From contig JANXBJ010000001.1 of the NCBI GenBank assembly GCA_025057645.1, forward strand, positions 62,001 to 126,000: a stretch of 64,000 nt of DNA. Direction: 5' to 3'. A program made the translations under genes and the position numbers. Positions 4,179 to 50,625 of this stretch are shown here, in pieces (within the stretch, counting starts at the first letter, position 1; each line of letters begins with the position of its first letter). The notes below the pieces were generated by a model. The model had not been told where the DNA came from, did not search any database, and saw only the letters and a list, made by a program, of their open reading frames with translations. This DNA is from Anaerolineales bacterium. Its GTDB lineage: Bacteria; Chloroflexota; Anaerolineae; Anaerolineales; UBA4823.

Positions 4179-5395
4179 TCCGACCCTCTACTTTCTGCCG
4201 CTGCATGCAGGATGCTCTCGGCAATCGCAAATGCGCCGAAGGGTTGGGCAAGGGATTGCAAGGCCTGGCGCATCTCGGCTAATCTTGAGGGTGTGCCGAG
4301 CAGGGCTTGAATTTCGGAAAGCAGTTTGGTGGATAATTCATTATCTTCCAAAATCTGCGCAGCGCGTTTTTGGGCTAAGTACTCGGCATTGACCCGTTGA
4401 TAACGCCAGGCGTAGGGGTAAGGGACTAAGATGGCCGGCAAGCCGAAGAGAGGCAGTTCGCCCAGCACCGAGGCGCCAGCGCGGCAGACTGCTAGATCGG
4501 ATGCAGCGAAGGCAGCGCTCATTTCTTCGTGGAGGTAAGGAAAAGCCCTGTAGCGCCGGAACTGCTCCTTCGGGAGCTGGACCTCGAGTTGGTTTTGGAA
4601 GCGGTGTACCTCTTGCCAATCCAAGTGACCGCTGATGTGGATAACTTGCGTGAACTGCAAAAGTTGAGGCAAAACCCTCATCAGTGCACGGTTAATCGAG
4701 CGCGCGCCCTTGCTACCTCCGAAGACGAGCAGCACCGGATCGCGAGGGTTGAGCTGAAAGAGCTGGCAAGCTTTTTCTTTCCTCGCGGGCAGGGTCGCCC
4801 AAAGGTAATGTTCTGTGCGGATCGGATAACCGCTGACCGTTATAGGAGAGCGGGGAGGAAAATATCCCCGACTCTCAGGGGCAGTTACGTTGATGCGATC
4901 CGCAAACCGTGAGACCATTTTTAGTGCGAGCGCTGGTTCGATGTCCGGAACGTAAAGGACGATTTTGGGTCTTTTCGATTTTGGCAGGGTGTAACGAGCC
5001 GCGATCGCCATTGGAAAGGCTAGATACCCCCCGGTAAGGAAAACTACCTGGGGTTGGAAGCGGCTGAGGAGGGCGCGTGAGGCAAGGATACCGCGCCAGA
5101 TTTGAAGAAGGTTGAGCGGTAAGCGCTTCCATCCTACTCCGTGCACACCTGCAGCGGGTATTTCTGCATAGGGTACGCCATGACGGCGCACAATTTGCGC
5201 CTCCATACCCCCAATCCCTCCGACCCACAGGGTGGCAATCTGCTGGCTTGGGGGAAAAGAGGTCTGCGCTTTCATCTGATAGGCTTCTCGCAGTGGGTTC
5301 GCCTCATCGTTTAGCGCCTGGAGCACGGCGAGAGCGGGGTAGACGCCACCGCCGGTCCCACCGGCGCAAATTAACCACTTTACTGAGGAGATCAT
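4175..5395 (-). CDS. murG: UDP-GlcNAc: lipid I GlcNAc transferase
   Basis: MurG converts lipid I to lipid II on the inner face of the membrane. The start is taken as ATG 5395, giving MISSVKWLICAGGTGGGVYPA, because an AAGGA sequence precedes it and this places the GGTGGG donor-binding loop at the usual N-terminal position; the frame is open 13 codons further. About 406 residues. GT-B features include VFGGSKGARSINRAL in the middle and the sugar-nucleotide pocket CRAGASVLGELPLFGLPAILVPYP. The gene overlaps the tail of ftsW by 92 bp, which is unusually long. Confidence 0.95.
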   Translation of the reverse strand: MISSVKWLICAGGTGGGVYPALAVLQALNDEANPLREAYQMKAQTSFPPSQQIATLWVGGIGGMEAQIVRRHGVPYAEIPAAGVHGVGWKRLPLNLLQIWRGILASRALLSRFQPQVVFLTGGYLAFPMAIAARYTLPKSKRPKIVLYVPDIEPALALKMVSRFADRINVTAPESRGYFPPRSPITVSGYPIRTEHYLWATLPARKEKACQLFQLNPRDPVLLVFGGSKGARSINRALMRVLPQLLQFTQVIHISGHLDWQEVHRFQNQLEVQLPKEQFRRYRAFPYLHEEMSAAFAASDLAVCRAGASVLGELPLFGLPAILVPYPYAWRYQRVNAEYLAQKRAAQILEDNELSTKLLSEIQALLGTPSRLAEMRQALQSLAQPFGAFAIAESILHAAAESRGSE

Positions 5396-6587
5396 CCTGT
5401 AATTCCTTACTGCTATCTGAGCGGATTCCAACATTTAAGATTGTTGCAATTGCGAAGATCGAAACCACCAGGTTCGAGCCTCCTGCACTGATAAACGGGA
5501 GAGCGTTCCCTGTGAAAGGGATCAGGTTAACGATTTGTGCCATGTTGATCAAGGCTTCCATCACAATCCAGCTCGTCATCCCGGCGGCGAGCAAGGCGCC
5601 GAGGGAGTCCGGAGCTCGCTGGGAGATCGCTAAGCCACGCCATAGAATGACCAGATACAATCCGATCAAAAGCGTTGTTCCGACCAAACCAAACTCTTCA
5701 CCCACGATGGCAAAAATACTATCGGACTGCGGGGTGGGCAAGCCGGTGCTTTTGGTTACGCTGTTGCCTAGGCCTACTCCGAAGAGGCCACCTTTATAGA
5801 AGGCCTCCAGAGCGCGCTGCACTTGATAGGGTGCGAGGGTGGGGTCCGAGATGCCTTGAATCCAATTCATTACCCGATTGCGTCCGGTTTCGGTCAAGAG
5901 GATGATCAACACCCCTAGAGAGAATACGCTCAGGATAAACAAGAGAATCTGTTTCCAATCCCCTCCAGCAAGGAAGAAGAGCATTCCCCCGATAGCAAGA
6001 ATAGTGAGGACGGCACTGTAATCAGGCTGTAAAAGGATAAAGGCGCTCATAATTCCGAGGATTAGGACGAGGGGGATCAGTCCAAAAGTGATTTCCTGAA
6101 GGGTTTCCTTTTTACCATCCAGCCAAAAGGCGACGTAGATCACGGTGATGAGCTTGGCGAGCTCGGCGGGCTGATAGGACCCTCCCAGAAGTCCTCTGCG
6201 GGCGCCGAACCGGCTTTCGCCGATAAACAGCACCAAGAGCAGCATCAGGATCACCAGAATAGCTGCAGGAAGTACGAAAGGCTTCCAGGCGTGGTAGTCA
6301 ACGAGGACAACCACGGGAGCAGCAGCTAGCGCTACCATTAGTGCGAGCACCTGACGAAGGAAAATACCGTAAATTGCAAACAGATCGCGAGTAGCACTAT
6401 AGTAAAAGGAAAGCTCGGCGCTGGCGGAGTAAATCATCATTAGTCCGAAGAGTAGCAACGCTGCACACACCAGGATCAAGGGCAGATCAAGCCGCAGCAA
6501 GGCGTTTCTTTGAAGCCACTGGCGCAAGCGGTTTGGGGTAGGGGGTGGAGTCTCTTTTACAAATCCATGACCCATTTTCGGAAGCAT
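5304..6587 (-). CDS. ftsW: Lipid II polymerase of the SEDS family, FtsW type
   Basis: This 427-residue polytopic membrane protein (about ten helices) belongs to the SEDS family, which polymerises lipid II at the septum together with a class B PBP. Landmarks are the early motif MMIYSASAELSFY, the central QPDYSAVLTILAIGG and the late NLIPFTGNALPFISAGGSN, a variant of the family TG(I/L)PLPF(V/I)S motif. The ATG at 6587 has GAGGAG eight bases upstream; a second ATG lies four codons later. A basic tail of about 40 residues is encoded inside the beginning of murG, so this tail has no counterpart I can predict in most FtsW proteins. Confidence 0.93.
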   Translation of the reverse strand: MLPKMGHGFVKETPPPTPNRLRQWLQRNALLRLDLPLILVCAALLLFGLMMIYSASAELSFYYSATRDLFAIYGIFLRQVLALMVALAAAPVVVLVDYHAWKPFVLPAAILVILMLLLVLFIGESRFGARRGLLGGSYQPAELAKLITVIYVAFWLDGKKETLQEITFGLIPLVLILGIMSAFILLQPDYSAVLTILAIGGMLFFLAGGDWKQILLFILSVFSLGVLIILLTETGRNRVMNWIQGISDPTLAPYQVQRALEAFYKGGLFGVGLGNSVTKSTGLPTPQSDSIFAIVGEEFGLVGTTLLIGLYLVILWRGLAISQRAPDSLGALLAAGMTSWIVMEALINMAQIVNLIPFTGNALPFISAGGSNLVVSIFAIATILNVGIRSDSSKELQDDLLSKVVNLRRWDRRWRLPRSRRAPGAKR

Positions 6588-28558: not shown

Positions 28559-30880
28559 TTATGCCGGGTCGAGAACACTCAGCTTGCGCAGCTTTTGGAG
28601 AAGGGCATTGCGCAGTTCCTGACCCTCGGAAGGGGCTATTTGGGATAAGCGGTCTAAGGCAGCCAGATATTGAGCCTGGGCAGCTTTCTCGTCCCCTAGA
28701 GTTTGGTAAACCTCGCCTAGCCCAAGATGGATTTCTAAGGCCTGCTGATGGGCTTTTTCCAAGCCGGGCAAAAGGGCTAGGGCGTGCTCATAGTGCTTCT
28801 GGGCTTGCTCATAGAGGGAACCGGCCAGGGCCTTTTGTGCAGCCAGAATCAAGTATTGGATGGCTTTTTCGGGCCGGTTGCCCCAGGAAAAGTGACGGGC
28901 TAGGAGTTCAACGACTTCGTTCAGCCGGTCGCTGTATCGGCTCTCCAGAGCTGTGCCGACTAAGGCATGCAAGCGGCTGCGCTCTTTCTTGAGCAAGGTG
29001 TTGTAAACCGCCTCGGAAATGATCAGATGGCGGAAGGCAAACTCGCCTTGGGGGTGATCTGGTGTGGCGAGGATGAATTCCCGCTCAATCAGCTCTTGGA
29101 GGGCTTTACGCAGGTCTTGCTCATCCACCGGAAGGACCGCCTTTAAAACCTCCTGTAAAATCTCCCCACTGAAGTGATGACCGATAATTGAGGCGCACTG
29201 TAAGGCGGTGCGTTGCAGGCTGGTTAGGCGGTCAAAGCGGGCCTGGACTAGGCCCTGAAGGTTGATAGGCACGCCCAGAGCTTCGCTGTCGATCGCCCGA
29301 TGAAGCTGAAGCCCATGAGGGGTATGCACCAGAGCCCCCTCATCGAGTAGCATGCGCAGAATCTCTTCGAGGAAGAGGGGGATGCCGTTAGCATGGTCGA
29401 GGATGCTCTGGACGAGCTTGGGGGGAAACCGGCGGATGTCCGCTAGGCTGGCGAGCATCGCATAGCTCTCTTCGCTCGTCAGGCTGCGCAGTTCAATCCG
29501 CTCGACCACGCAAGAGCCGGCTTGCTGCGCTGTGTGGAGGAACTTTTGGAGCGGGGGAATGTTTTCGTTTCGCGTGGCAGCAAGGATCAAGAGCGGCGTT
29601 TGCGGGAGATCGGCGACAATCGCTTCTAAGATGCTCAGCGAGGCTTCGTCTGCCCATTGCAGGTCCTCGAGAATCCAAATCCGAGGTTGATTGGGGTGGT
29701 GAGGATAGAGGAGCAAACGGATAGCCGTGAGCATCCGGCGGCGGAATTGGGCGCCTTCTAAACCCTGAACGAGGGTTGGGTAGCTGGAGTCGGAAGTCGG
29801 CAGAGAGAAGAGGTACTCCACGTAGGGAAGCAGCTCGGCTGCGCTTTGCGGTGCCACAGCTCTCAAGGCATAGCGCAAGGAGCGCGAGATCTCCGGTGGA
29901 GTGCCCTTCGAGGGGAGATTGAGCCGATGTCGCAAAAGGTCGGTGAAGATCCAATAAGGGACGGAACGGCGGTAGGTAAGGCTGGCTCCTTCGATGTAGC
30001 GGATTTTTGCCTTGGCCAGCCGGGTTTTGAGTTCCTGAAGCAGGCGACTCTTGCCGATGCCCGCCTCGCCGCAGATCAAGATCAGTTTCCCCTTTTGGGC
30101 GCTCTGAATTGCATCGGCAAGTTGGAGCAGACTCGCTAGCTCTTTGTGACGCCCGACCAAGGGGGCGTGAAGGCCTTCCCGGACGCGGGAGGTCGCAGAG
30201 GAGGGCTTTAGCCCAAGGAGACGGTAGCAGGCTATCGGTCGCTCAAAGCCTTTGAGTGTGACATCGGGGAGTTTTTCATACTCGAAAAGGGCTCGGGTCT
30301 GGTGCACGATTTCAGCACTGGTGTAAATACAGCCCGGCTCGGCGATCTCTTCTAATCGATAAGCGAGGTTGACCGTTTCCCCAATTGCCGTGTAATCCAT
30401 CAAGAGATTTGAACCGATTTCCCCGACAATTACCGGGCCGCAGTGTAAGCCGATGCGCAAATTGAGGTCGATCCCCAGACTCTGTTGGACTTTTTGGCGC
30501 CAGAGCGCAAAGTTGGCTTGCATGTCTAAGGCGGCACGTACGGCGCGTTCGGTGTTGTTTTCGTAACTCACTGGTGCACCGAACAGGGCCATAATACCGT
30601 CCCCAGTCATTTTGTCGATCACGCCTTCATATTTGTAAACTTCACGGCTGAGGAGGTCTGTGTATTGCTGGACGAGCTCATAGAGGGCTTCGCTGTCCAA
30701 GCGGCTGGCAGCGGCGGTGTAGCCTGCGAGATCGGCAAACAGAACGGTGACATGGCGGATCTGACTGCGCTGGCGGGCTTCCAGAATTAAGGGCGGGTCG
30801 CCCAACCTGGATCCGCAATAGCCACAAAAGCGCATCCCCTGAGGCATTTGCCTATGGCATTGGCTGCAGATGATTCCCAT
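28559..30880 (-). CDS. Class III nucleotide cyclase with AAA ATPase and TPR domains
   Basis: From ATG 30880 the product has 773 residues. It contains an N-terminal zinc ribbon (CSQCHRQMPQGMRFCGYC), then a class III cyclase homology domain: VLFADLAGYTAAASRL with the first metal Asp, MTGDGIMALFGAP with the second, and AIGETVNLAYRLEEIAEPG with the Asn and Arg of the transition-state pair. An AAA-type ATPase follows (LICGEAGIGKSRLLQELK), then a long helical region ending in TPR-like repeats. The catalytic set appears intact, so it should make cAMP or cGMP; such multidomain cyclases usually respond to protein partners. A TATAGT lies 12 bp upstream of the ATG, giving a very short leader. Confidence 0.85.
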   Translation of the reverse strand: MGIICSQCHRQMPQGMRFCGYCGSRLGDPPLILEARQRSQIRHVTVLFADLAGYTAAASRLDSEALYELVQQYTDLLSREVYKYEGVIDKMTGDGIMALFGAPVSYENNTERAVRAALDMQANFALWRQKVQQSLGIDLNLRIGLHCGPVIVGEIGSNLLMDYTAIGETVNLAYRLEEIAEPGCIYTSAEIVHQTRALFEYEKLPDVTLKGFERPIACYRLLGLKPSSATSRVREGLHAPLVGRHKELASLLQLADAIQSAQKGKLILICGEAGIGKSRLLQELKTRLAKAKIRYIEGASLTYRRSVPYWIFTDLLRHRLNLPSKGTPPEISRSLRYALRAVAPQSAAELLPYVEYLFSLPTSDSSYPTLVQGLEGAQFRRRMLTAIRLLLYPHHPNQPRIWILEDLQWADEASLSILEAIVADLPQTPLLILAATRNENIPPLQKFLHTAQQAGSCVVERIELRSLTSEESYAMLASLADIRRFPPKLVQSILDHANGIPLFLEEILRMLLDEGALVHTPHGLQLHRAIDSEALGVPINLQGLVQARFDRLTSLQRTALQCASIIGHHFSGEILQEVLKAVLPVDEQDLRKALQELIEREFILATPDHPQGEFAFRHLIISEAVYNTLLKKERSRLHALVGTALESRYSDRLNEVVELLARHFSWGNRPEKAIQYLILAAQKALAGSLYEQAQKHYEHALALLPGLEKAHQQALEIHLGLGEVYQTLGDEKAAQAQYLAALDRLSQIAPSEGQELRNALLQKLRKLSVLDPA

Positions 30881-30892
30881 CGAGCCTATGCT

Positions 30893-30944
30893 ACTATAAA
30901 AACGTCCAAACGGACTTGACACTTTTGTTGGGCGTTCGTATAAT
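30893..30944. promoter_or_regulatory. Divergent promoters of the cyclase gene and the rplU operon
   Basis: On the plus strand, TTGACA (30916-30921) and TATAAT (30939-30944) are exactly 17 bp apart: a full consensus promoter for rplU-rpmA-rpmE. On the minus strand, TATAGT (30898-30893) is the likely -10 of the cyclase gene, so the two promoters nearly overlap and may interfere. A short GTCC/GGAC repeat lies between them. Confidence 0.8.
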
Positions 30945-31071
30945 TCCAACTTGCCCCTAGTTCTAAGCTAGGAAGCCATTTTGTATCCCCAACTTCCTCA
31001 TCGTTGTGCGGAAGCGCCGGAAAGAGGCGTGGAGCGCGCATCCGGTGGAGAAGTGAAGCTTGGAGAGCACA

Positions 31072-31695: not shown

Positions 31696-32169
31696 ATGAA
31701 GAAAGGCATTCATCCTACCTACTACCCGGATGCCCAGGTTATCTGTGCTTGTGGCAACACTTGGACAACAGGTTCGACCAAGAAAGTGATCCACACCGAC
31801 CTGTGTTCTAAATGTCATCCCTTCTATACCGGCGAGCAACGCATTGTGGATACCGAGGGGCAAGTCGACCGGTTCTACCGCAAGTTGGAGGTTCGGAAAC
31901 AGTATCAAGCGGAGAAGGAAGCCCGCGAGGCCGCTCGCACTTCGCCTTTGCGCCCGATCGCCGATCTGAACCTCGGCCCGCGCGCTACCGAAGCCTTGGC
32001 CAAGGCAGGGATCACCACGGTGGGGCAGGCTTTGGAACGCCTAGCACAGGGCGAACAGGCGCTTTTGGCAATCGATGGTTTTGGGCGCAAATCTTTAGCT
32101 GATCTCAAGAAACGCTTGCGTTCCTTCGGCTATCAGTTGCCGGAGGCCGCCGAGGAGATTGTGGTCTAA
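31696..32169 (+). CDS. rpmE: 50S ribosomal protein L31 fused to an alpha-CTD-like domain
   Basis: The first 70 residues are a zinc-type L31: MKKGIHPTYYPDAQVICACG, with CxC and CSKCHPFYTGEQRIVDTEG providing four cysteines, and RFYRKL. L31 normally ends there. After a charged linker, residues about 90-150 add a second domain: LNLGPRATEALAKAGITTVG ... AIDGFGRKSLADLKKRL. This closely resembles the helix-hairpin-helix C-terminal domain of the RNA polymerase alpha subunit (RSYNCLKRAGI, NLGRKSLEEVKAKL). Total length 157. The fused domain could contact nucleic acid or another protein. A strong terminator follows. Confidence 0.93.
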   Translation: MKKGIHPTYYPDAQVICACGNTWTTGSTKKVIHTDLCSKCHPFYTGEQRIVDTEGQVDRFYRKLEVRKQYQAEKEAREAARTSPLRPIADLNLGPRATEALAKAGITTVGQALERLAQGEQALLAIDGFGRKSLADLKKRLRSFGYQLPEAAEEIVV

Positions 32170-32221: not shown

Positions 32222-32453
32222 TGACTTAAGTTCAGGCTTGCGATTAGAACGCACTTCCGGGTTGAGGGGATAGGAGGGGGAGTTGTCTTTCGTCGCTTGG
32301 CAGCTTTCCCATAATCACACTTCTTTGAAGTAAATCAACTGCCATCATATTCAGGCCTCAATGTAAGTTGCTGCTCTATCTTGCATGATTCGGAGTTGAG
32401 CAGTGCAGCCAGGCAAAACCTGCTGAGGTCAAGCTTAAAGTTACATTTCCCCT
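32222..32453. other. Intergenic region, nothing recognised
   Basis: About 230 bp between the ribosomal-operon terminator and the riboswitch promoter. I see no open frame with good start signals and no strong repeat. Confidence 0.5.
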
Positions 32454-32482
32454 TGACAGAAGATTAAGAATCGGTTAAACTA
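32454..32482 (+). promoter_or_regulatory. Promoter of the first c-di-GMP riboswitch transcript
   Basis: TTGACA near 32454-32459 is followed after 17 bp by TAAACT. The predicted start lies just before the aptamer. Confidence 0.6.
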
Positions 32483-32493
32483 AGTGAAAAGCT

Positions 32494-32572
32494 TCGAAAA
32501 GGCAAACCCGTCGTGAGGCGGGGGCGCAAAGCCATGGGGTCTTCCCCTAGGAAGATAGCCCGGCTGCCGAAA
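32494..32572 (+). promoter_or_regulatory. c-di-GMP-I (GEMM-I) riboswitch aptamer, copy 1
   Basis: The conserved GEMM-I core is present in order: GGCAAACC (from 32501), a P1b hairpin with GTGA tetraloop, GCGCAAAGCC, a second helical arm, and GGCTGCCG closing the first helix. These elements match class I c-di-GMP aptamers. A terminator follows directly, so ligand binding probably switches transcription of the downstream surface-protein gene; the direction (ON or OFF) cannot be read with certainty. Confidence 0.93.
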
Positions 32573-32617
32573 AGCCTGACAGAAAGAACTTCTCTGGTCG
32601 GGGGTCAGGCTTTTTGG
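32570..32617 (+). terminator. Riboswitch expression-platform terminator
   Basis: AAAGCCTGAC (from 32571) pairs with GTCAGGCTTT (ending near 32612), followed by a T-run. The 5' strand begins right at the 3' end of the aptamer, whose closing helix uses the neighbouring GGCTGCCG, so the two structures may compete. Confidence 0.85.
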
Positions 32618-32695
32618 TTTACTTCGTAATAAGGGTCTAGTCCCCTAAGAACTGCTCGCATCCTGAACTCGCTGCGCCTTACCTTTACTGCATAG

Positions 32696-32863
32696 GTGGT
32701 TATCAAGATTACGGATAAGGTCGAGACTCAACGCCTCATAGATTGGCTAGGGGAGAGCTTGAGTATCCCTTTGGAGAAGGTGAGACGATACGGTGCGCTT
32801 CTCCACGAGGAGAGGTGTTGCTCTACCTGCGAAAAAAGAAAGGAGGAACTGACCGGGATCTGA
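32696..32863 (+). CDS. Possible small protein downstream of the riboswitch
   Basis: A GTG-started frame of 55 codons encodes a charged peptide ending in RCCSTCEKRKEELTGI, with three clustered cysteines. Composition is protein-like, but there is no clear ribosome-binding site, and I recognise no family. It would lie in the same transcript as the surface-protein gene. Alternatively, it is untranslated leader. Confidence 0.3.
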   Translation: MVIKITDKVETQRLIDWLGESLSIPLEKVRRYGALLHEERCCSTCEKRKEELTGI

Positions 32864-32918
32864 AGGCTTTTCGAGCTTCAAAGCAGGAGATTTGAACTCG
32901 TGGCTAAGGAGACTATCG

Positions 32919-35544
32919 ATGAAAGGGACACTGTTACATACTCTGAATATTCTTGTTTCATTGTTGGTGGTTTTCTCTCTTGTTACCCCTACCTCTGCAG
33001 CTTCACCGATCTATGTGCGCATAGATGGACATGATACAGAATGCAATGGCACGGCGAATGTTGCTTACTCCGGTAGCGCTAAGCCAAATTGTGCCGTCAG
33101 GACCGTTCAAAAGGGGATTGACCTCGTTGACATAGGGGGGACGGTGTATGTCAATGATGGTGTTTATAATGAGAATATCACCATTCTAAATAAAAACGTG
33201 AAATTACTTTCTATCAATGGGCGCTCCAGCACAACCATTCAGGGAGTGTCAGGGGTCGGAAGTTTGGCAACTTTGCTTGTGGACGGCGCAACGACCGGTG
33301 TTCAGATTGGGGATGTCGGTCACGGATTCACGATTGTCGGAATTGACAATGGCAATCCCGCTGTTGAGAACGCAGCACTATACTTCAGGGGTACACACAG
33401 CAATGCAATCATCAAAGGGAACGAGATAAGGGCAAATGGTGATCACGGGCTTTTATCCGAGTATGGAGCAACGATCACAAATTTCGTGATTGACTCAAAC
33501 ATCTTTTCTGGGAAGACATTTGTTGGTGAGACTCCAGGTGGAGAAGGGCTTGGCGGGCAGTTTACCATTCCGAATGTGCCTCGCCAATTGGTGGTGATGG
33601 GAGGTGGACCTTCGGGTACACTAACAACTGCCGTCCAATTTACGAACAATCAGGTTACCGGCATTGCGGGTGGCGTTAATTCGGATGGCAAAGAACAAGG
33701 AAACACTCTGGTGACCATTGATGCCGACAACAGTCTAATCGAGGGCAACACCTTTGCCGGGGTAACAACGCGAGACGCAGCCAGTCTAAGGGCACGCCGT
33801 CCGGGTACGATTATTAGGAATAACAACTTCTCCAGCGCCGGTTTGACACCCACGACAAGACACTTATTTATCCAAAGTAATCCTCTCACTGATGAACTGG
33901 TTGCGGCAAATACTTTTGATAAGGGCGTATATATTTCTGATCCGTCCGGTGGAGTGGTGGGTATCTCTCTCAAGCCATTCGGCGCAAGTGCCCCTAATGG
34001 CAGTGTAGTCAAAGTCCTTCCCGGGACGTATAACGAGCCCACAGGGGTCGCAATTAATCGCAGAATAACTTTTCTAGGCAGTGGGTCAACCCGTTCAATC
34101 ATCAAAGGGTCGTTCGAAGTCTACACGAATACGGTCACGATCCAGGGTTTCAAGATTGAAAACGGCACGACAAGCGGCGGGGAACTCCATGGGATCTACA
34201 TTGCGGCTGGGCTCTTGGGCGTTCAGATCAGAGATAATTGGCTGGTTGGAACCTGGACCGGAGGGGAAAATAATTTTGTCGGTGGTCGGGGGGTTCTGAC
34301 CGGTTATAACGTCAGCAACCTGACAGTTGAGAACAACGTCATCGAGAAATGGGTCAGCGGCATCTATCTCAACCCAACCGACGGCGCTGTCACCGTCCGC
34401 AACAATGAAATCAAGAACAACTGGGCTGGTGCGGGCACGGATGGTCAAGCCAATGTGCTGTTCAAGAACAATTATTTCATCGGCAACATCGAAGGCATCG
34501 GTGCTTCTGCGGTCGGCGCATCCTTCAAAGTTGAGGAGAATGCCTTCATAGGTAATACCGATGCGGTGAAATGGTATAACGGCATGCCCATTTCAGCGAA
34601 ATTCAATTGGTGGAATGGGAATAAAGGTCCAGTGGTCTCCAGCAATCCGAAGGGGAACGGGCAGCGCATCTCGAGCAACGTCGAATACCGCCCCTGGCTC
34701 TGCGATGGGACGGATGCCCAACCGGGGGTGCCCCGGCTTCCAACCCGCTGCCAACGTGGCCACATGCACCAATCTCGCCACCAAGCTGGTCTTCGCCCAA
34801 TATCCCAGCACTGCCTTCGAAAACATCCCCTTTGAGCAACAACCGGTGGTCCGCGCCGAAGACGATCAGGGCAATCTGGCCATTACTTTTGAGAGCTTCG
34901 TGTTTCTCAGCCTCGCCAATAACCCGGCTGGTGGGTTGCTGTTGCCCGGACCCTATTACAAGAAGGCTGCGGATGGCGTGGCGGCGTTTAGCGGACTTTA
35001 CATCAACAAAGCCGGGCAAGGATACACCCTCAAGGCATTCGGGTTAGGCTCCGGTGGTGATTTCATCCTTGTCGAGGGGCCCGCATTCGAGGTCCGCAAA
35101 CAACAAGCCGACCTCGCTATCACCCTGACCGATAACCCCGACCCAGTGAATGTGGGTGCTGCGCTGAGCTACACGGTCGCCGTCACCAACAACGGGCCGC
35201 ATGTCGCTCAAGCGGTCAGCGTCAGCTTGCTTTTGCCCAACGGTTTTGCCCTGCAGAGCGCCAGCGGCAGCGGTTGGTCCTGCAGCCAAGCCGGCAATAC
35301 CCTCACCTGCAATCGAACCGACCTCCCCAGCGGACAGTCTTCTCAAATCCTCGTCCAAGGCACTGCTCCCGCCCAAGCCGGTTCGATCACAGCTACTGCC
35401 TCGGTGAGTTTGTCGCAGGCTATGGACGACCCCAACTCGGCCAATAACCAAGCCACGGCGACAACCACGGTTGTCGAACTCCCACCCACCGGTCCATCCC
35501 ATTTCCTCTACTTGCCGCTGGTGTTCAAGAGCGGAGCGCCATAG
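32919..35544 (+). CDS. Secreted beta-helix/DUF11 surface protein, frameshifted
   Basis: Start ATG 32919 with AGGAG upstream. The protein has a signal peptide (MKGTLLHTLNILVSLLVVFS ... PTSA), a long right-handed parallel beta-helix region rich in repeated Asn-containing turns (for example NLTVENNVIEKWVSGIYLNP), and a domain of the DUF11 type (ADLAITLTDNPDPVNVGAAL, LSYTVAVTNNGP). The C-terminus is ELPPTGPSHFLYLPLVFK. The reading frame breaks at the GGGGG run 34724-34728: the first frame ends at 34835, while the sequel continues in the +1 frame to 35544. Removing one G joins them as DAQPG-CPGFQPAANVATC. It could be a sequencing error, a mutation or phase variation. Likely an adhesin or matrix protein under c-di-GMP control. 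Confidence 0.8.
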
Positions 35545-35585
35545 GTCGGGTACTCTCCTTAGTCTTGGGAGTCCCCTAGCAGACA

Positions 35586-35667
35586 TCGGATCGCAGGCAT
35601 CCCTGCCTGCGATCCGACATTATTGCGGGTGTCTGCCTGCGCACGATGGTGGGCGATGACGCCCACC
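35586..35667. repeat. Two perfect hairpins between convergent genes
   Basis: TCGGATCGCAGGCA (35586-35599) and its exact complement (35604-35617) form a 14-bp stem with a TCCC loop. GGTGGGCG (35648-35655) and CGCCCACC (35660-35667) form an 8-bp stem with an ATGA loop. They lie between the convergent surface-protein and sortase genes and may terminate both, or be dispersed palindromic repeats. A low-complexity stretch rich in AACTCAAAACCC-like units follows at about 35780-35835. Confidence 0.65.
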
Positions 35668-35837
35668 CTCCATAGCTACCTCTGGGAGCAAGAAGAGGAA
35701 GTCAATGTCGCGAGGACAGCTCCATCGGGATTGAATATCACGCTCACTCCCCCACCACAAAGCCGAGCACCCAGGCTCGGAACTCAAAACCCAAAACCCA
35801 GAACTTCCAACTCACAACTTACAACTCAAAACCCCAT

Positions 35838-36545
35838 TCATTCTACCGGACTCGCAACCACAAACAATCTCCCCCAATTTGCCAAGCCGTTTTGGGCGAT
35901 GCAGGTCTGTAAAGTGACGTGCGGCTCGCCCATATAATAACGGGCAAAGATTTGCGCCGTGCTCAGGATTTCACCCGTCTCCAGGTTCTTGTAGTCGCTG
36001 ATGTTGCTGCCGGGCTGCAGGGCTTGGTAGCGATCAATTTGCCGAACCTGATACAGACGGGTATGCTTGTCATCCGAGACCAAGTAAAATTGATCGCCCA
36101 AGCGCAACAGAAAATAATACTGCCCTGCATGGGTGTTATGCGCCAACAACCCCACGACCTCTTCTTCTGCAAGCATATACTGGGTCAAAACATCCATTTC
36201 CCAGGAGATAAAGCTGTAGTTATTCGGGGGTTGTTGCACAATGCGGGCAGTAAATTTCCCATCGGCGTAAAAACCCCGCCATGCAGAGCTCTGCCCACTG
36301 GTAACTTGGGTGATGAATTCTTCTAGGGTCGGAAAGGTGGGTTCAGGGGTAGGAGTTGGGGTTGGTGTAGGTTGGGTGGTCGACCCTCCAGCCGTTTCTT
36401 CAGGCTTGATCAGGAGTGGCAAAAAGACCTGATGTTGAACTTCTGCTTTTACCGGCGCAATCCTTGCTAGATTTGGCAGGCAAAGGGTTGGCAAGCTGCA
36501 GGCAAAAAAGGCTGCGCTAATCATTCCAACGAGGCGTCTTGTCAT
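35838..36545 (-). CDS. Secreted sortase-like transpeptidase
   Basis: Start ATG 36545 has a perfect AGGAGGAAAG upstream; the product has 235 residues. An N-terminal hydrophobic segment (residues 4-25) is followed by QHQVFLPLLIKPEE, a PT-repeat linker (about 55-70) and a C-terminal domain with sortase hallmarks. These are His136 in VGLLAHNTHAG, the exact TLxTC signature TLQTC with Cys215, and Arg226 in NWGRLFVVA. These are the three catalytic residues of sortases, which cleave a sorting motif and attach proteins to a nucleophile on the surface. Its gene has its own c-di-GMP riboswitch and converges on a surface protein with an LPPTG tail. Confidence 0.75.
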   Translation of the reverse strand: MTRRLVGMISAAFFACSLPTLCLPNLARIAPVKAEVQHQVFLPLLIKPEETAGGSTTQPTPTPTPTPEPTFPTLEEFITQVTSGQSSAWRGFYADGKFTARIVQQPPNNYSFISWEMDVLTQYMLAEEEVVGLLAHNTHAGQYYFLLRLGDQFYLVSDDKHTRLYQVRQIDRYQALQPGSNISDYKNLETGEILSTAQIFARYYMGEPHVTLQTCIAQNGLANWGRLFVVASPVE

Positions 36546-36568
36546 CTTTCCTCCTAGCTGACAAAGAC

Positions 36569-36673
36569 GCCCCGACAAGAAGCCGGATCAGACTTGCCAT
36601 CTGCGGGTCAAGAGCAGCGACAATGCCCCGAGTGCAAATGACAGACGAATTTTGTCTGCGCCTAGCTCGGGGC
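36569..36673 (-). promoter_or_regulatory. Expression platform between riboswitch 2 and the sortase gene
   Basis: On the minus strand, GCCCCGAG (36673-36666) can pair with CTCGGGGC (36632-36625), enclosing a smaller CAGAC/GTCTG hairpin, or with TCGGGGC (36575-36569) close to the ribosome-binding site. The two pairings exclude each other. No T-run follows, so control may be translational. Confidence 0.4.
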
Positions 36674-36737
36674 GGTTCTAGAGGGAAGTCCCCCTGTGGG
36701 AATGGACGGCTAGTAGGTGTGCCACTCATCGCTCGTT

Positions 36738-36816
36738 TTCGGCAGCCTGGCAGTCATAGACAGATCGTCCTTAGACCCATGGCTTTGCGTCGCCGGCTTT
36801 CGCCGGGTTTGCCTTT
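36738..36816 (-). promoter_or_regulatory. c-di-GMP-I (GEMM-I) riboswitch aptamer, copy 2
   Basis: Read on the minus strand the core is complete: GGCAAACC, a P1b hairpin closed by a GAAA tetraloop (GGCGAAAGCC), GACGCAAAGCC, an arm containing CTAAG and CTATGA that resembles the 11-nt receptor for a GAAA tetraloop, and GGCTGCCG. This is a canonical class I c-di-GMP aptamer. It precedes the sortase-like gene by about 190 nt. Confidence 0.94.
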
Positions 36817-37154
36817 GTCGAACGAAAGCTTTCTCTTCCTGCGCGAGGATTGAACCAGATCGCGCTCTTCTAAATTTTAACTGCAAAACTTGGAAAAATT
36901 CCTATTATTATTGTAAGGTAGAGAACTGTATCGACCCTTGGGGGCGGATACCTCCATCTCTGTTTGTAGGCAAGGGGGCCGCTCCTTGCATCTACTCCTT
37001 TTGCCCTCCTCTAGGGGAAGGATGCAGAAAAAGGAGTTCGACCGGCTGCGCCGTTCAACTCACTACCCTGAACCGGCCGGAGGAAGGCGTCAGCCTTTCT
37101 TCGAGTCCTAGCCCGAAGTGCACTCAACGCTCGAGCAGGGCCGGCCCTCGACCC
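36817..37154. other. Intergenic region upstream of riboswitch 2
   Basis: About 340 bp between riboswitch 2 and the end of the DICT-like gene. An AT-rich patch at 36870-36925 could hold the minus-strand promoter for the riboswitch, but no clear -35/-10 pair is visible. A CTCCTTTT ... AAAAGGAG repeat occurs near 36996-37038. Confidence 0.4.
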
Positions 37155-37739
37155 CTAGGGCAGCTCAGGGGGCAAAGGTGGAGGGACTTGGCCGGGGAAG
37201 TTCAGATGGAGCAGGTTAAGCAGCTTATAAGCGAGCTGCTCATCGAACGTGTAAAGTCCTTCGTAGACGCGTTTGGCTACGGGGCTGCCCTGGCTGGGGA
37301 CTTTTTCCTCGGCGACCAAGGTCATGCTGAGGCCGGTGCCGTAGGCCACGACAAACCAGTAGTTGACTAATGGACTGTTGGCGAGTTCGATGAAAGTAGT
37401 GTTTGGCCACCCAGGGAGCTCGGCATCTGCCACGGCATAAAGCCACAGGCCCTGTAACCTTGGGGTGATCTCTTGGTAGCGCTGTCGCTGATCGCGAACG
37501 CGCGAGAGGTACTGAAAACAGACGTGTAGCTGAGCCGGCCGTAAAGACTGGGCGGCGGCGTCTTCAATCAGATGGCTGATCGAGGTCATCGCTTCGACAG
37601 AGAAGATATAGCGGAATTGTGCTTGGCGCAATTGCTCGGGCTTCAGTTCACCAAGAGCAGCTTCGGATTGAGGGGAGAACACAGGTAAAGCCTTGTTGAA
37701 AAACTGGATGAAAAGGGAAACAGCGTCTTGTGTCTGCAT
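37155..37739 (-). CDS. DICT-like sensory-domain protein
   Basis: The 194-residue protein (ATG 37739; a TTG at 37748 is possible) has no membrane segment. The segment RYIFSVEAMTSISHLIEDAA, the FQYLSR...QRYQEI stretch, and SPLVNYWFVVAYGTGLSMTL followed by YEGLYTFDEQLAYKLLNLL resemble the DICT domain, a sensory module usually attached to diguanylate cyclases and histidine kinases. Here it stands alone. It may take part in the c-di-GMP signalling suggested by the neighbouring riboswitches, but this is inference from proximity. A TATAAT lies about 35 bp upstream. Confidence 0.5.
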   Translation of the reverse strand: MQTQDAVSLFIQFFNKALPVFSPQSEAALGELKPEQLRQAQFRYIFSVEAMTSISHLIEDAAAQSLRPAQLHVCFQYLSRVRDQRQRYQEITPRLQGLWLYAVADAELPGWPNTTFIELANSPLVNYWFVVAYGTGLSMTLVAEEKVPSQGSPVAKRVYEGLYTFDEQLAYKLLNLLHLNFPGQVPPPLPPELP

Positions 37740-37912
37740 CGGTGGCAAGTCTCCGCCTTGAAGATTTGGGATCGTAATGCTGATTATATCAAAAGTGTGA
37801 GTTTACCCCAGGCCCTGCGTTCGGTAACATTTTCGCCGGGCCTAACCCAGATTGCTGAACGACATACAGCCCGCCTTAGAGAACCTTGGCACAGTTGTTT
37901 CAAAGGGCGCTC

Positions 37913-38953
37913 TCAGGCCTGAGCGATTTCTCTAACTAATCCCGGTCCTCGATACACTAGGCCAGTGTACACCTGAAGCAGATCTGCTCCTGCGTCCAGC
38001 ATTGCCCTAGCTTGCTCTCGTCCTACAACCCCCCCGACCCCGATCAGCGGCAACCGCTCCCCCGCCCGTCTGCGGATCTTCTTCACAGTCTCCAAACTCA
38101 AGGCGAATAAGGGCAAGCCGCTAAGCCCTCCGTCTTCGCCGGCCGTGGGGCTGAGGGATAGAACGTCCGGCTGCAACCCTTTACGCTGAACAGTCGTGTT
38201 TGTAGCGATGATTCCGTCCATGGCTTGGGTAGTCACTACCTCTAGGATATCGTCTAACTCGCGGTCTTCTAGGTCGGGGGCGATCTTGACTAGGATAGGG
38301 ATGTGCTTTCCTAGCTCGGTTTGGGTTTCCCGGCGGCGTGCATGGAGAGCGCTAAGCAGCTCTTCCAGCGCTTGGCGCGCTTGCAGCCGGCGTAAGCCCA
38401 GAGTGTTGGGGGAGCTGACGTTGACCGCCAGATAGTCGGCTAACGGCGCAAAGACATCAAAAAGAGCAAGATAGTCCTCGGCCGCTCTCTCCAACGGCGT
38501 GGCTTGATTTTTACCCAAGTTGACCCCAAGAACAACTCCTGCAGGACGCTTGCAGCGCAACTGCTGCGCAACGAAGGCCGCTCCTCTTCCGGGAAACCCC
38601 ATACGGTTGATTAGGGCTTGGGCTTCGGGTAAGCGAAATAGACGCGGTTTGGGGTTGCCCGGTTGAGGCTTAGGGGTTACTGTCCCCACCTCGATATGAC
38701 CGAAACCCAAGCAGGATAAACCCTGCCAAGCGATCCCATCCTTATCGTAGCCGGCGGCCAACCCCACCCGGTTGGGAAAGATCAGCCCGAAACACCTTAC
38801 CGGCTGAGAAGGAGTGGTGAAAAGGCTCCTGAGGAGAGAGGCCACTGGCGGGAAGCGGCCACAAACCCTAAGCAGGGACAAAGTAAATTGGTGCACCCAT
38901 TCCGGGTCGAAGCGGAAGAGGAACTGGCGCACCAAAGGATAGAGTTCCGTCAT
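37913..38953 (-). CDS. pyrD: Dihydroorotate dehydrogenase (quinone), class 2
   Basis: PyrD oxidises dihydroorotate to orotate with FMN, passing electrons to membrane quinone in class 2 enzymes. The 346 residues include the N-terminal helical region, FPNRVGLAAGYDKDGIAWQG, GVNLGKNQATPLERAAEDYL, LAVNVSSPNTLGLRRLQ with the catalytic Ser region, and LIGVGGVVGREQARAMLDAG for the phosphate site. It overlaps the pyrFE stop by 4 bp and ends the pyr operon. Confidence 0.95.
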   Translation of the reverse strand: MTELYPLVRQFLFRFDPEWVHQFTLSLLRVCGRFPPVASLLRSLFTTPSQPVRCFGLIFPNRVGLAAGYDKDGIAWQGLSCLGFGHIEVGTVTPKPQPGNPKPRLFRLPEAQALINRMGFPGRGAAFVAQQLRCKRPAGVVLGVNLGKNQATPLERAAEDYLALFDVFAPLADYLAVNVSSPNTLGLRRLQARQALEELLSALHARRRETQTELGKHIPILVKIAPDLEDRELDDILEVVTTQAMDGIIATNTTVQRKGLQPDVLSLSPTAGEDGGLSGLPLFALSLETVKKIRRRAGERLPLIGVGGVVGREQARAMLDAGADLLQVYTGLVYRGPGLVREIAQA

Positions 38954-40398
38954 CCCGTGGCTGTCCTGTGCAGGAAGTCACGCACTGCTTGCGCAGTTTG
39001 AACTTCGATCTTCCCTCGTGCTTCCCAGTAGTTCATCAAGTCGCTAAGCCTGAACACGCTGTGGAGTGCATAGCCCCGTTCTGCGAGTGCCTCCTTGGCT
39101 CCCGACTGACGATCGATCAGAACGACCACGTCTGTGACTCTCAAGCCGGCTTGAGTGAGCTTCGCAATCCCCTCAAACTTACTTTCCCCTGTGGTAGCCA
39201 AATCATCGATCAGCACGATTCGTTCCCCCTCATGGTAGTCCCCTTCGATTTGAGCTTGGGTGCCGTATTCCTTGACTTCCCGTCGCGGGTAGATCCAAGG
39301 GTAGCCGCCTTGGAGGCTGATGGCAGCGGCAATCGGCAAAGCGGCATAGGGAATGGCTGCGAGGCGGTCGAAGGTTAGAGACCTCAAGATCGGCAGATAG
39401 GCTGCGGCCACCTCGGCGAGCAGGGAGGGATATCCAATGAGCCGGCGCAAGTCGATGTAAATGGGCGAGACCAGGCCTGATTTCAGGGTGAACCGCCCGA
39501 AACAGACGCAACCGCTTTCCAGTAAGGCGTCCGCCACGCTTCGAAGTTGCGGCTGGAAAAATGCCGACTCGGAGGGAGCGCTCTGCTTCTCTCGGAGAAG
39601 TTTATTGCGCAGATAGTTAATTTGCTCCCTATACTGCCGAGCTGCTTGGGCGGGATCGGGATGGCGGGCGATCGAGCGCGAAACGTTGATCAGGGTTCCC
39701 AAGCCGTCCGAGCGCAATCCGGCTCGCAGGGCAAGCTCCAGATCTCCTCCCTGAGCGCCCACCCCGGGGATTAGCAGCCACATTTCGGGCACAATTGCGC
39801 GGATGCGCTCGATGGCTTGGGGATAGGTGGCTCCGGCCACCAAGCCGACGTTCTTGAGGCGGTTGAGTTGCCTCGCCATTCGGGCGACGCGTTCAAAGAG
39901 CCGTTCTATTCCCACCTCGCCGTCGAGGCAGCGCGCTTCTTGGAGGAAATCAGCCGTGGGGTTAGAGGTCTTGCAGAGGAGAAAAGCCCCCTTCTGTGCG
40001 GTGGCGAGGAAGGGCTGAAGCGCACCCTCCCCTAAATAGGGGTTGACCGTAACGGCATCCGCTCCGAGCCACCCGAACGCAGCTCGAGCGTAAGCCTCCG
40101 CCGAAGAGGCAATATCCCCTCGCTTGGCATCTAGGATTGTCGGAATTTCTTCGGGGATGGAGGATATGACCTCTTTTAGAACCTTCCATCCCTCGCCGCC
40201 AAACGCTTCGAAAAAAGCGCTATTGGGTTTGAACGCAGCCGCAAAGGGAGCGCAAAGTTCGACAAGCGTATGGCAATATCGAGAAAGGGCTGCTGCTGTG
40301 GGTTCTAAGAGGTCCTGCGGGTGAGGGTCAATGCCGATGCATAGCAGCGAATTGGCCTTCCGACAACGTTCCTCTAGCTTTTCGATAAAGGATTTCAT
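38950..40398 (-). CDS. pyrFE: Bifunctional orotidine-5'-phosphate decarboxylase / orotate phosphoribosyltransferase
   Basis: One 482-residue chain performs the last two steps to UMP. Residues 1-275 are a type-2 OMP decarboxylase: LLCIGIDPHPQDLL, the catalytic ILDAKRGDIASSAEAYARAA near 90, and GAQGGDLELALRAGLRSDGL. Residues about 290-480 are an orotate phosphoribosyltransferase: RFTLKSGLVSPIYIDLR and the PRPP loop RIVLIDDLATTGESKFEG. The order is decarboxylase first, the reverse of the animal UMP synthase. It lies 7 bp after pyrB. Confidence 0.95.
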   Translation of the reverse strand: MKSFIEKLEERCRKANSLLCIGIDPHPQDLLEPTAAALSRYCHTLVELCAPFAAAFKPNSAFFEAFGGEGWKVLKEVISSIPEEIPTILDAKRGDIASSAEAYARAAFGWLGADAVTVNPYLGEGALQPFLATAQKGAFLLCKTSNPTADFLQEARCLDGEVGIERLFERVARMARQLNRLKNVGLVAGATYPQAIERIRAIVPEMWLLIPGVGAQGGDLELALRAGLRSDGLGTLINVSRSIARHPDPAQAARQYREQINYLRNKLLREKQSAPSESAFFQPQLRSVADALLESGCVCFGRFTLKSGLVSPIYIDLRRLIGYPSLLAEVAAAYLPILRSLTFDRLAAIPYAALPIAAAISLQGGYPWIYPRREVKEYGTQAQIEGDYHEGERIVLIDDLATTGESKFEGIAKLTQAGLRVTDVVVLIDRQSGAKEALAERGYALHSVFRLSDLMNYWEARGKIEVQTAQAVRDFLHRTATG

Positions 40399-50291: not shown

Positions 50292-50321
50292 ACGCCTCAT
50301 CGTCTCAGGGACGAGAGGCGT
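50292..50321 (-). terminator. T-box regulatory terminator
   Basis: On the minus strand ACGCCTC-TCGTC pairs with GACGA-T-GAGGCGT around a CCTGA loop, followed by TTTT. It lies between the T-box sequence and trpEGD, as expected for a transcriptional T-box. Confidence 0.85.
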
Positions 50322-50625
50322 CTCCCGTGGTGCCACCCTGCTTAGACCGGCTCTTACCGCTAAACGTAAAACCCGTTGTCAGACAACGGGTTGAGATAGC
50401 CAGTCTCACTCTTTTCGGGTACGACTTGCAATGCAAGCTTATACCCTTTGCCGCGATAACGGTGGCAACTCCGGCACAGGCTACTGCCGATTCTTGAAAT
50501 CGGGTTCGCCTTGCAGCTCTGAGATCCATTCCCTTGCTCGACCGGTCGGGTTCGCACCATCCACCCGCTCTCTGAACCGTCCAGAAGCAAGGTACTCTTT
50601 CTCTTCAACGCCTTTTAACAGTCGA
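50292..50625 (-). promoter_or_regulatory. T-box leader responding to tRNA-Trp
   Basis: Minus-strand features fit a T-box riboswitch: AGAGTACC near the 5' end of stem I, GGGTGGATGGTGCGAACC in its distal part, and a specifier loop with GAA-TGG-A. Its TGG codon at 50528-50526 is tryptophan. The T-box AGGGTGGCACCACGG is at about 50341-50327. The antiterminator bulge TGGC would pair with an NCCA end whose discriminator is G, as in bacterial tRNA-Trp. Uncharged tRNA-Trp should therefore turn on trpEGD-C-F-B-A. Confidence 0.9.

Follow-up and report, generated by a model that had tools for sequence, protein, structure and literature searches.

Predicted c-di-GMP-I riboswitches facing each other before a sortase gene and a convergent surface protein gene in an Anaerolineales bacterium

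Introduction

Could a single second messenger act both on the supply of a surface protein and on the enzyme that may anchor it, and if so, in the same direction? This question is raised by a stretch of 64,000 nucleotides from an Anaerolineales bacterium (GenBank assembly GCA_025057645.1, contig JANXBJ010000001.1, positions 62,001 to 126,000 of the forward strand), hereafter called the window. In its middle part, a gene for a secreted beta-helix/DUF11 protein and a gene for a sortase converge, and each is preceded by a c-di-GMP-I aptamer (Table 1). A sequence-only reading of the locus had proposed a joint switch of both genes, which would serve biofilm formation or attachment, with an adjoining DICT-like protein as part of the same module. 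Here we dissect the two leaders, the two gene products, and their counterparts in relatives.

Results

The two GEMM-I riboswitches that had been proposed, facing each other about 4.2 kb apart, were both recovered by Rfam above the gathering cut-offs, and no further c-di-GMP aptamer was detected in the window with Rfam. The aptamer before the surface gene also scored 68.8 bits against RF01051. The 3.1 Mb genome contained only 6 c-di-GMP-I aptamers, located at 5 places, and we estimate that about 3% of such genomes would have two aptamer places within 4.2 kb of each other by chance. The facing pair was found again in the sister genome G296 and at locus L128, and was therefore not a product of chance. 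The position that we take to select the ligand was G in each window aptamer and in every one of the 28 aligned aptamers; an A there would point to c-AMP-GMP. Judged by these sequences, the window aptamers probably bind c-di-GMP. Moreover, ten GGDEF proteins were encoded in the genome and, together with the six aptamers, indicated that c-di-GMP is very likely made by this bacterium.

Table 1. Features of the convergent locus, with positions counted from the first letter of the window
Feature	Position	Strand	Basis
Promoter-like site TTGACA-17-TAAACT of surface gene	32453..32481	+	Consensus scan 10/12; consensus match only
c-di-GMP-I aptamer of surface gene (RF03167 c-di-GMP-I-GGC)	32492..32572	+	Rfam 68.4 bits, gathering 59
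Terminator of surface gene, 5' arm formed by aptamer 3' strand (ON design)	32567..32619	+	Overlap shared by G296 and L128 leaders
Secreted beta-helix/DUF11 surface protein gene	32919..35544	+	Pfam Beta_helix, DUF11; two frames
C-terminal tail LPPTGPSHFLYLPLVFKSGAP of surface protein	35479..35541	+	Translation; conserved in convergent partners
Sortase (NCBIfam NF053836), 235 aa; H136, C215, R226	35838..36545	-	Profile match, alignment, predicted fold
VFLPLLIK motif of sortase, behind signal peptide	36405..36428	-	Translation, alignment
Hairpin around sortase ribosome-binding site and start codon	36526..36579	-	Compensatory changes among four close leaders
Mid-leader hairpin of sortase	36625..36673	-	T-run behind it in G296 and L127, none in window
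c-di-GMP-I aptamer of sortase (RF01051)	36738..36823	-	Rfam 83.5 bits, gathering 35
DICT domain	37155-37748	-	44.5 bits

Several other features were noted in the window. Ribosomal protein L31 carried a fused domain resembling the C-terminal domain of RNA polymerase alpha (31696-32169, +; Pfam L31 98.8 bits, RNA_pol_A_CTD 39.6 bits), and a T-box leader scored 119.9 bits (50304-50617, -). Another protein (28559-30949, -) began with a zinc ribbon and joined a class III nucleotide cyclase domain to regions of AAA ATPase and TPR type. In a pyrimidine gene cluster, a 482-aa protein (38950-40398, -) read by eye as orotidine-phosphate decarboxylase fused to orotate phosphoribosyltransferase.

The enzyme, previously described as sortase-like, carried the full His-Cys-Arg site and the fold of a sortase. 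It scored 203 bits against the NCBIfam family sortase_YLP (NF053836, cut-off 125), and 20.7 bits against Pfam Sortase, under the cut-off of 26.6. Among 52 sequences, H136 and C215 (within TLxTC) were invariant and R226 was conserved in at least 90%. The AlphaFold model (pLDDT 87.7) showed the eight-strand sortase fold and matched sortases C, E and A, the best match being sortase C1 of S. suis (Z 12.9, 118 residues, 2.5 A); a profile search against PDB sequences returned no relative. The model and the active site thus point to a sortase, with transpeptidase activity predicted. This protein was the only NF053836 member in the genome, which encoded three other sortases, and the family has so far been labelled only 'putative sortase'. 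The sortase-domain matches L210 (G000:C61:68311-68709) and L211 (G000:C22:4981-5385) lay in open frames of 1033 and 1800 aa, respectively, possibly sortases joined to large proteins.

The surface protein gene started with the ATG at 32919 and was read in one frame to about 34730 and in a second frame from there on. Comparison with the intact orthologues of G296 (a sister species; 1450 aa) and L128 located the frameshift at 34724-34735, beside a G-run; either an error of sequencing or a genuine interruption of the gene could account for it. The C-terminus of the protein read LPPTG-PSHFL-YLPLVFKSGAP, with LPPTG placed 16 residues before the end and followed by just PSHFLYLPLVFKSGAP, a short hydrophobic stretch. 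An LPXTG-like motif near the C-terminus was thus present in the window protein, as in its counterparts in relatives (LPPTG or IPVTG/IPITS). The window tail lacked the membrane-spanning segment (about 20 residues, then basic residues) of a classical sorting signal. The YLP-tail pattern gave about 100 matches versus about 20 in the control, and a DNA pattern for YLPL[IV] alone showed no enrichment over its control (30 versus 31). The tail was rejected as a strict marker of this sortase since the pattern also occurred in genomes without this sortase (11 times in G243 and 15 times in G253), and for the same reason the tail alone is no proof of a substrate. Other secreted proteins of this genome behind c-di-GMP riboswitches ended in VFLPILAKP (L008 3675-5393, +) and IYLPLVIKSP (L009 9817-12084, -); in both leaders, a terminator lay beyond the aptamer with no overlap. 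SdrD-like surface proteins were also found behind c-di-GMP aptamers in the genus (L010 11253-13355, -; L089, L116, L120, L121), and those of the sister genome shared a C-terminus of an AAPQQS-like motif, a hydrophobic segment, and RRRRK, without LPxTG.

Is the surface protein the substrate of the facing sortase? Convergent neighbours immediately behind the sortase, ending in an LPxTG-like motif and then a YLP tail, were found in the window, G296, L127-L129, L130 (the locus of Thermanaerothrix daxensis), L131 and L154, that is, in the lineage of the window and three others. The four relatives' partners that were scanned contained beta-helix and DUF11 or Ig/cadherin-type domains. In these partner-bearing loci, the sortase itself carried a YLP motif behind its signal peptide. 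Such a partner was found beside 6 of the 8 YLP-type sortases and 0 of the 72 others (p = 9e-8, with kinship ignored); the two YLP-type sortases without one were the Bellilinea loci L132 and L138. YLP sortases occupied two places in the sortase tree. At L164, L171 and L184, the convergent neighbour ended in IPVTG and a long hydrophobic segment. Near its mature N-terminus, the sortase carried a motif like that of the partner's tail, YLP beside YLP partners and VPVTG beside the IPVTG partner of L184. Because the convergent beta-helix partner recurs beside the sortase in four lineages, the two are likely an enzyme-substrate pair, as far as gene order and motifs can tell. The earlier suggestion of a surface substrate next to its possible anchoring enzyme is thus strengthened by the C-terminal LPPTG and by an arrangement conserved beyond the genus.

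We further examined how far riboswitch control of the sortase extends. A covariance model was built from 28 aptamers of the order and applied to 1.2 Mb of DNA from 80 sortase loci. Upstream DNA was present at 76 loci, and at 49 of these a riboswitch immediately preceded the sortase; 37 sortase leaders contained tandem aptamers, and the window leader had a single one. Of 89 aptamer positions near sortase loci, 86 were directly upstream of the sortase; the other three were two just behind a sortase (L193) and one facing it (L128). At L193, the tandem aptamers (5225-5480, +) were directly 3' of the sortase and not in front. Rfam's own models, applied to nine loci from a separate search, placed an aptamer upstream in seven. 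In the midpoint-rooted sortase tree, one large clade carried the riboswitch almost throughout, as did all YLP-type members with a readable leader, and several groups lacked it; the Levilinea saccharolytica locus had none. By this comparison of sequences, the riboswitch-sortase link is widespread across the class. Three c-di-GMP-I aptamers in series were seen at L118 (G027:C1:2991443-2991705, -), where the first long reading frame behind them read as RuvB, an unexpected target.

Riboswitch control of the surface gene was more restricted. A riboswitch preceded the convergent surface gene in the window, G296 and L128, and none was found in L130, L131 or L154, though the pair was kept and upstream DNA was present; L127 and L129 ended too early to be assessed. 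Since it was not found beyond close relatives, dual riboswitch control appears to be a local elaboration. The expected co-occurrence of riboswitches with both genes was therefore borne out broadly for the sortase and only in close relatives for the surface gene. As to the DICT-like protein, the domain itself was genuine, and its membership in the module did not hold: no DICT homologue was found at any other sortase locus fetched, including that of G296, and we regard this neighbour as incidental.

The two kinds of leader differed in design. Blocking the aptamer 3' strand abolished a strong terminator in all three surface-gene leaders (window, G296 and L128). Since the 5' arm of this terminator is the aptamer's own 3' strand, the leader is of ON design. 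The same overlap was seen at other aptamers of the order, before SdrD-like and trypsin-like proteins. In most tandem sortase leaders, a separate terminator followed the first aptamer, usually 20-60 nt further on, and none of the terminators found in relatives' sortase leaders overlapped the aptamer's 3' strand. In the tandem leaders, the 5' arm of the terminator was instead able to pair with the 3' half of the aptamer (duplex median -22.2 kcal/mol, versus -7.7 for the 3' arm), with z < -2 in 28 of 36 tandem leaders and with compensatory matched variants (GCCAGGCC/GGCCUGGC, GCCAAGCC/GGCUUGGC, and GCCAGACC/GGGUCUGGC). Pairing of this kind constitutes an antiterminator, and the tandem sortase leaders are hence of OFF design. 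In nearly every sortase leader examined, the last aptamer was followed by a hairpin at the ribosome-binding site and the start codon. The sortase leaders of L127 and G296 also contained a terminator-like hairpin without aptamer overlap. On second or single aptamers, including that of the window sortase leader, P1-strand blocking and aptamer complementarity had no consistent effect and gave no direction. Because no test gave a direction for the window sortase leader, OFF control of this gene is proposed by analogy with the tandem leaders of relatives. Together, the two kinds of leader look built for opposite responses.

Discussion

We slightly favour a c-di-GMP-responsive surface module, in which the LPPTG-YLP protein would be the substrate of the facing sortase and each gene would respond, through its own c-di-GMP-I riboswitch, in the opposite direction to the other. 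Upon binding, c-di-GMP would prevent termination and turn the surface gene ON, and would turn the sortase gene OFF if the window leader behaves like the tandem leaders of relatives. The sortase would cleave the LPPTG-YLP tail and attach the surface protein to the envelope.

The two genes might instead be neighbours by happenstance within a c-di-GMP regulon, with the sortase acting on other proteins and the beta-helix protein anchored otherwise. The c-di-GMP aptamers of the order do precede many kinds of secreted protein, YLP tails occur in genomes without this sortase, and the genome has three other sortases. We nevertheless hold this to be rather unlikely, since four lineages share the convergent pair, which tracks the YLP type of sortase, and since other aptamers are almost absent from the 1.2 Mb around sortases. 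Much the same weight is given to control of both genes in one direction, the joint up-switch of the sequence-only reading. This would suit the sortase leader of the window, with its single aptamer and no clear terminator. The ON-design surface leader set against the OFF-design tandem sortase leaders of relatives speaks against it: none of the terminators found in relatives' sortase leaders overlaps the aptamer 3' strand, whereas those of surface-gene leaders do, and the tandem leaders show antiterminator complementarity.

Opposite leader designs would also be expected if the enzyme released the protein rather than anchored it. At low c-di-GMP the sortase-fold enzyme would be made, cut the tail and so free the protein, and at high c-di-GMP the protein would be made and the enzyme off, as with PPEP-1 and CD2831 of C. 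difficile (PMC6447587, PMC6366702). That precedent notwithstanding, we consider release improbable. In fold and active-site residues the enzyme agrees with transpeptidase sortases, LPPTG belongs to the anchoring motifs, nothing specific to a hydrolase was found, and the OFF response of the window sortase is itself drawn from relatives. Attachment of the surface protein by the facing sortase thus remains our preferred reading.

The closest precedent for this reading is the inverse control of sortase substrates and their releasing protease in C. difficile. There, c-di-GMP raises the sortase substrate CD2831 via a class II riboswitch and, via a class I riboswitch, lowers the adjacent protease gene CD2830 (PPEP-1/ZmpI) (PMC6447587, PMC6366702). 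Both systems place adjoining genes for an LPXTG-like surface protein and an enzyme that acts on it under separate c-di-GMP riboswitches; opposite responses are established in C. difficile and predicted here. In contrast to the present locus, where the enzyme is a sortase and both genes carry class I aptamers, C. difficile has a metalloprotease as the enzyme, a class II riboswitch before the surface gene, and a sortase that is not itself the partner under riboswitch control. The Bc2 RNA of B. thuringiensis, a class I ON switch acting by transcription read-through before the collagen adhesion protein gene cap (PMC4933901, PMC6366702), resembles the surface-gene leader in class, design and position before a surface adhesin, but no sortase gene under a facing riboswitch has been described for it. 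Tandem c-di-GMP-I riboswitches are common (PMC9481103), and two class I aptamers in series also occur in the 37 relatives' sortase leaders, unlike the single aptamer of the window. In those leaders a terminator comes after the first aptamer, and the ribosome-binding-site hairpin after the second. That review mentions neither Chloroflexota nor sortase, and in the open-access literature we found no paper that describes a sortase under riboswitch control or deals with c-di-GMP riboswitches of Anaerolineae. To the family NF053836, of which the window sortase is a member, the present analysis adds riboswitch control and a convergent LPxTG/YLP partner.

A bolder generalization is offered tentatively and is, in our judgement, doubtful: that across Anaerolineae c-di-GMP riboswitches drive a sortase and its facing substrate oppositely, that the copy of the tail motif in the sortase reflects self-anchoring or pseudo-substrate autoinhibition, and that LPxTG plus a YLP tail forms a minimal sorting signal of a new kind, lacking a complete transmembrane segment.

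For a family known so far only as putative sortases, the LPxTG/YLP tail offers a specific predicted substrate. The riboswitch-sortase link, mostly tandem where present, is conserved enough to be pursued in cultivated relatives, among them Thermanaerothrix daxensis and Bellilinea caldifistulae; the riboswitch-free Levilinea saccharolytica locus provides a natural contrast. If the proposed module is true, c-di-GMP riboswitches would target protein sorting itself, beyond the supply of adhesins.
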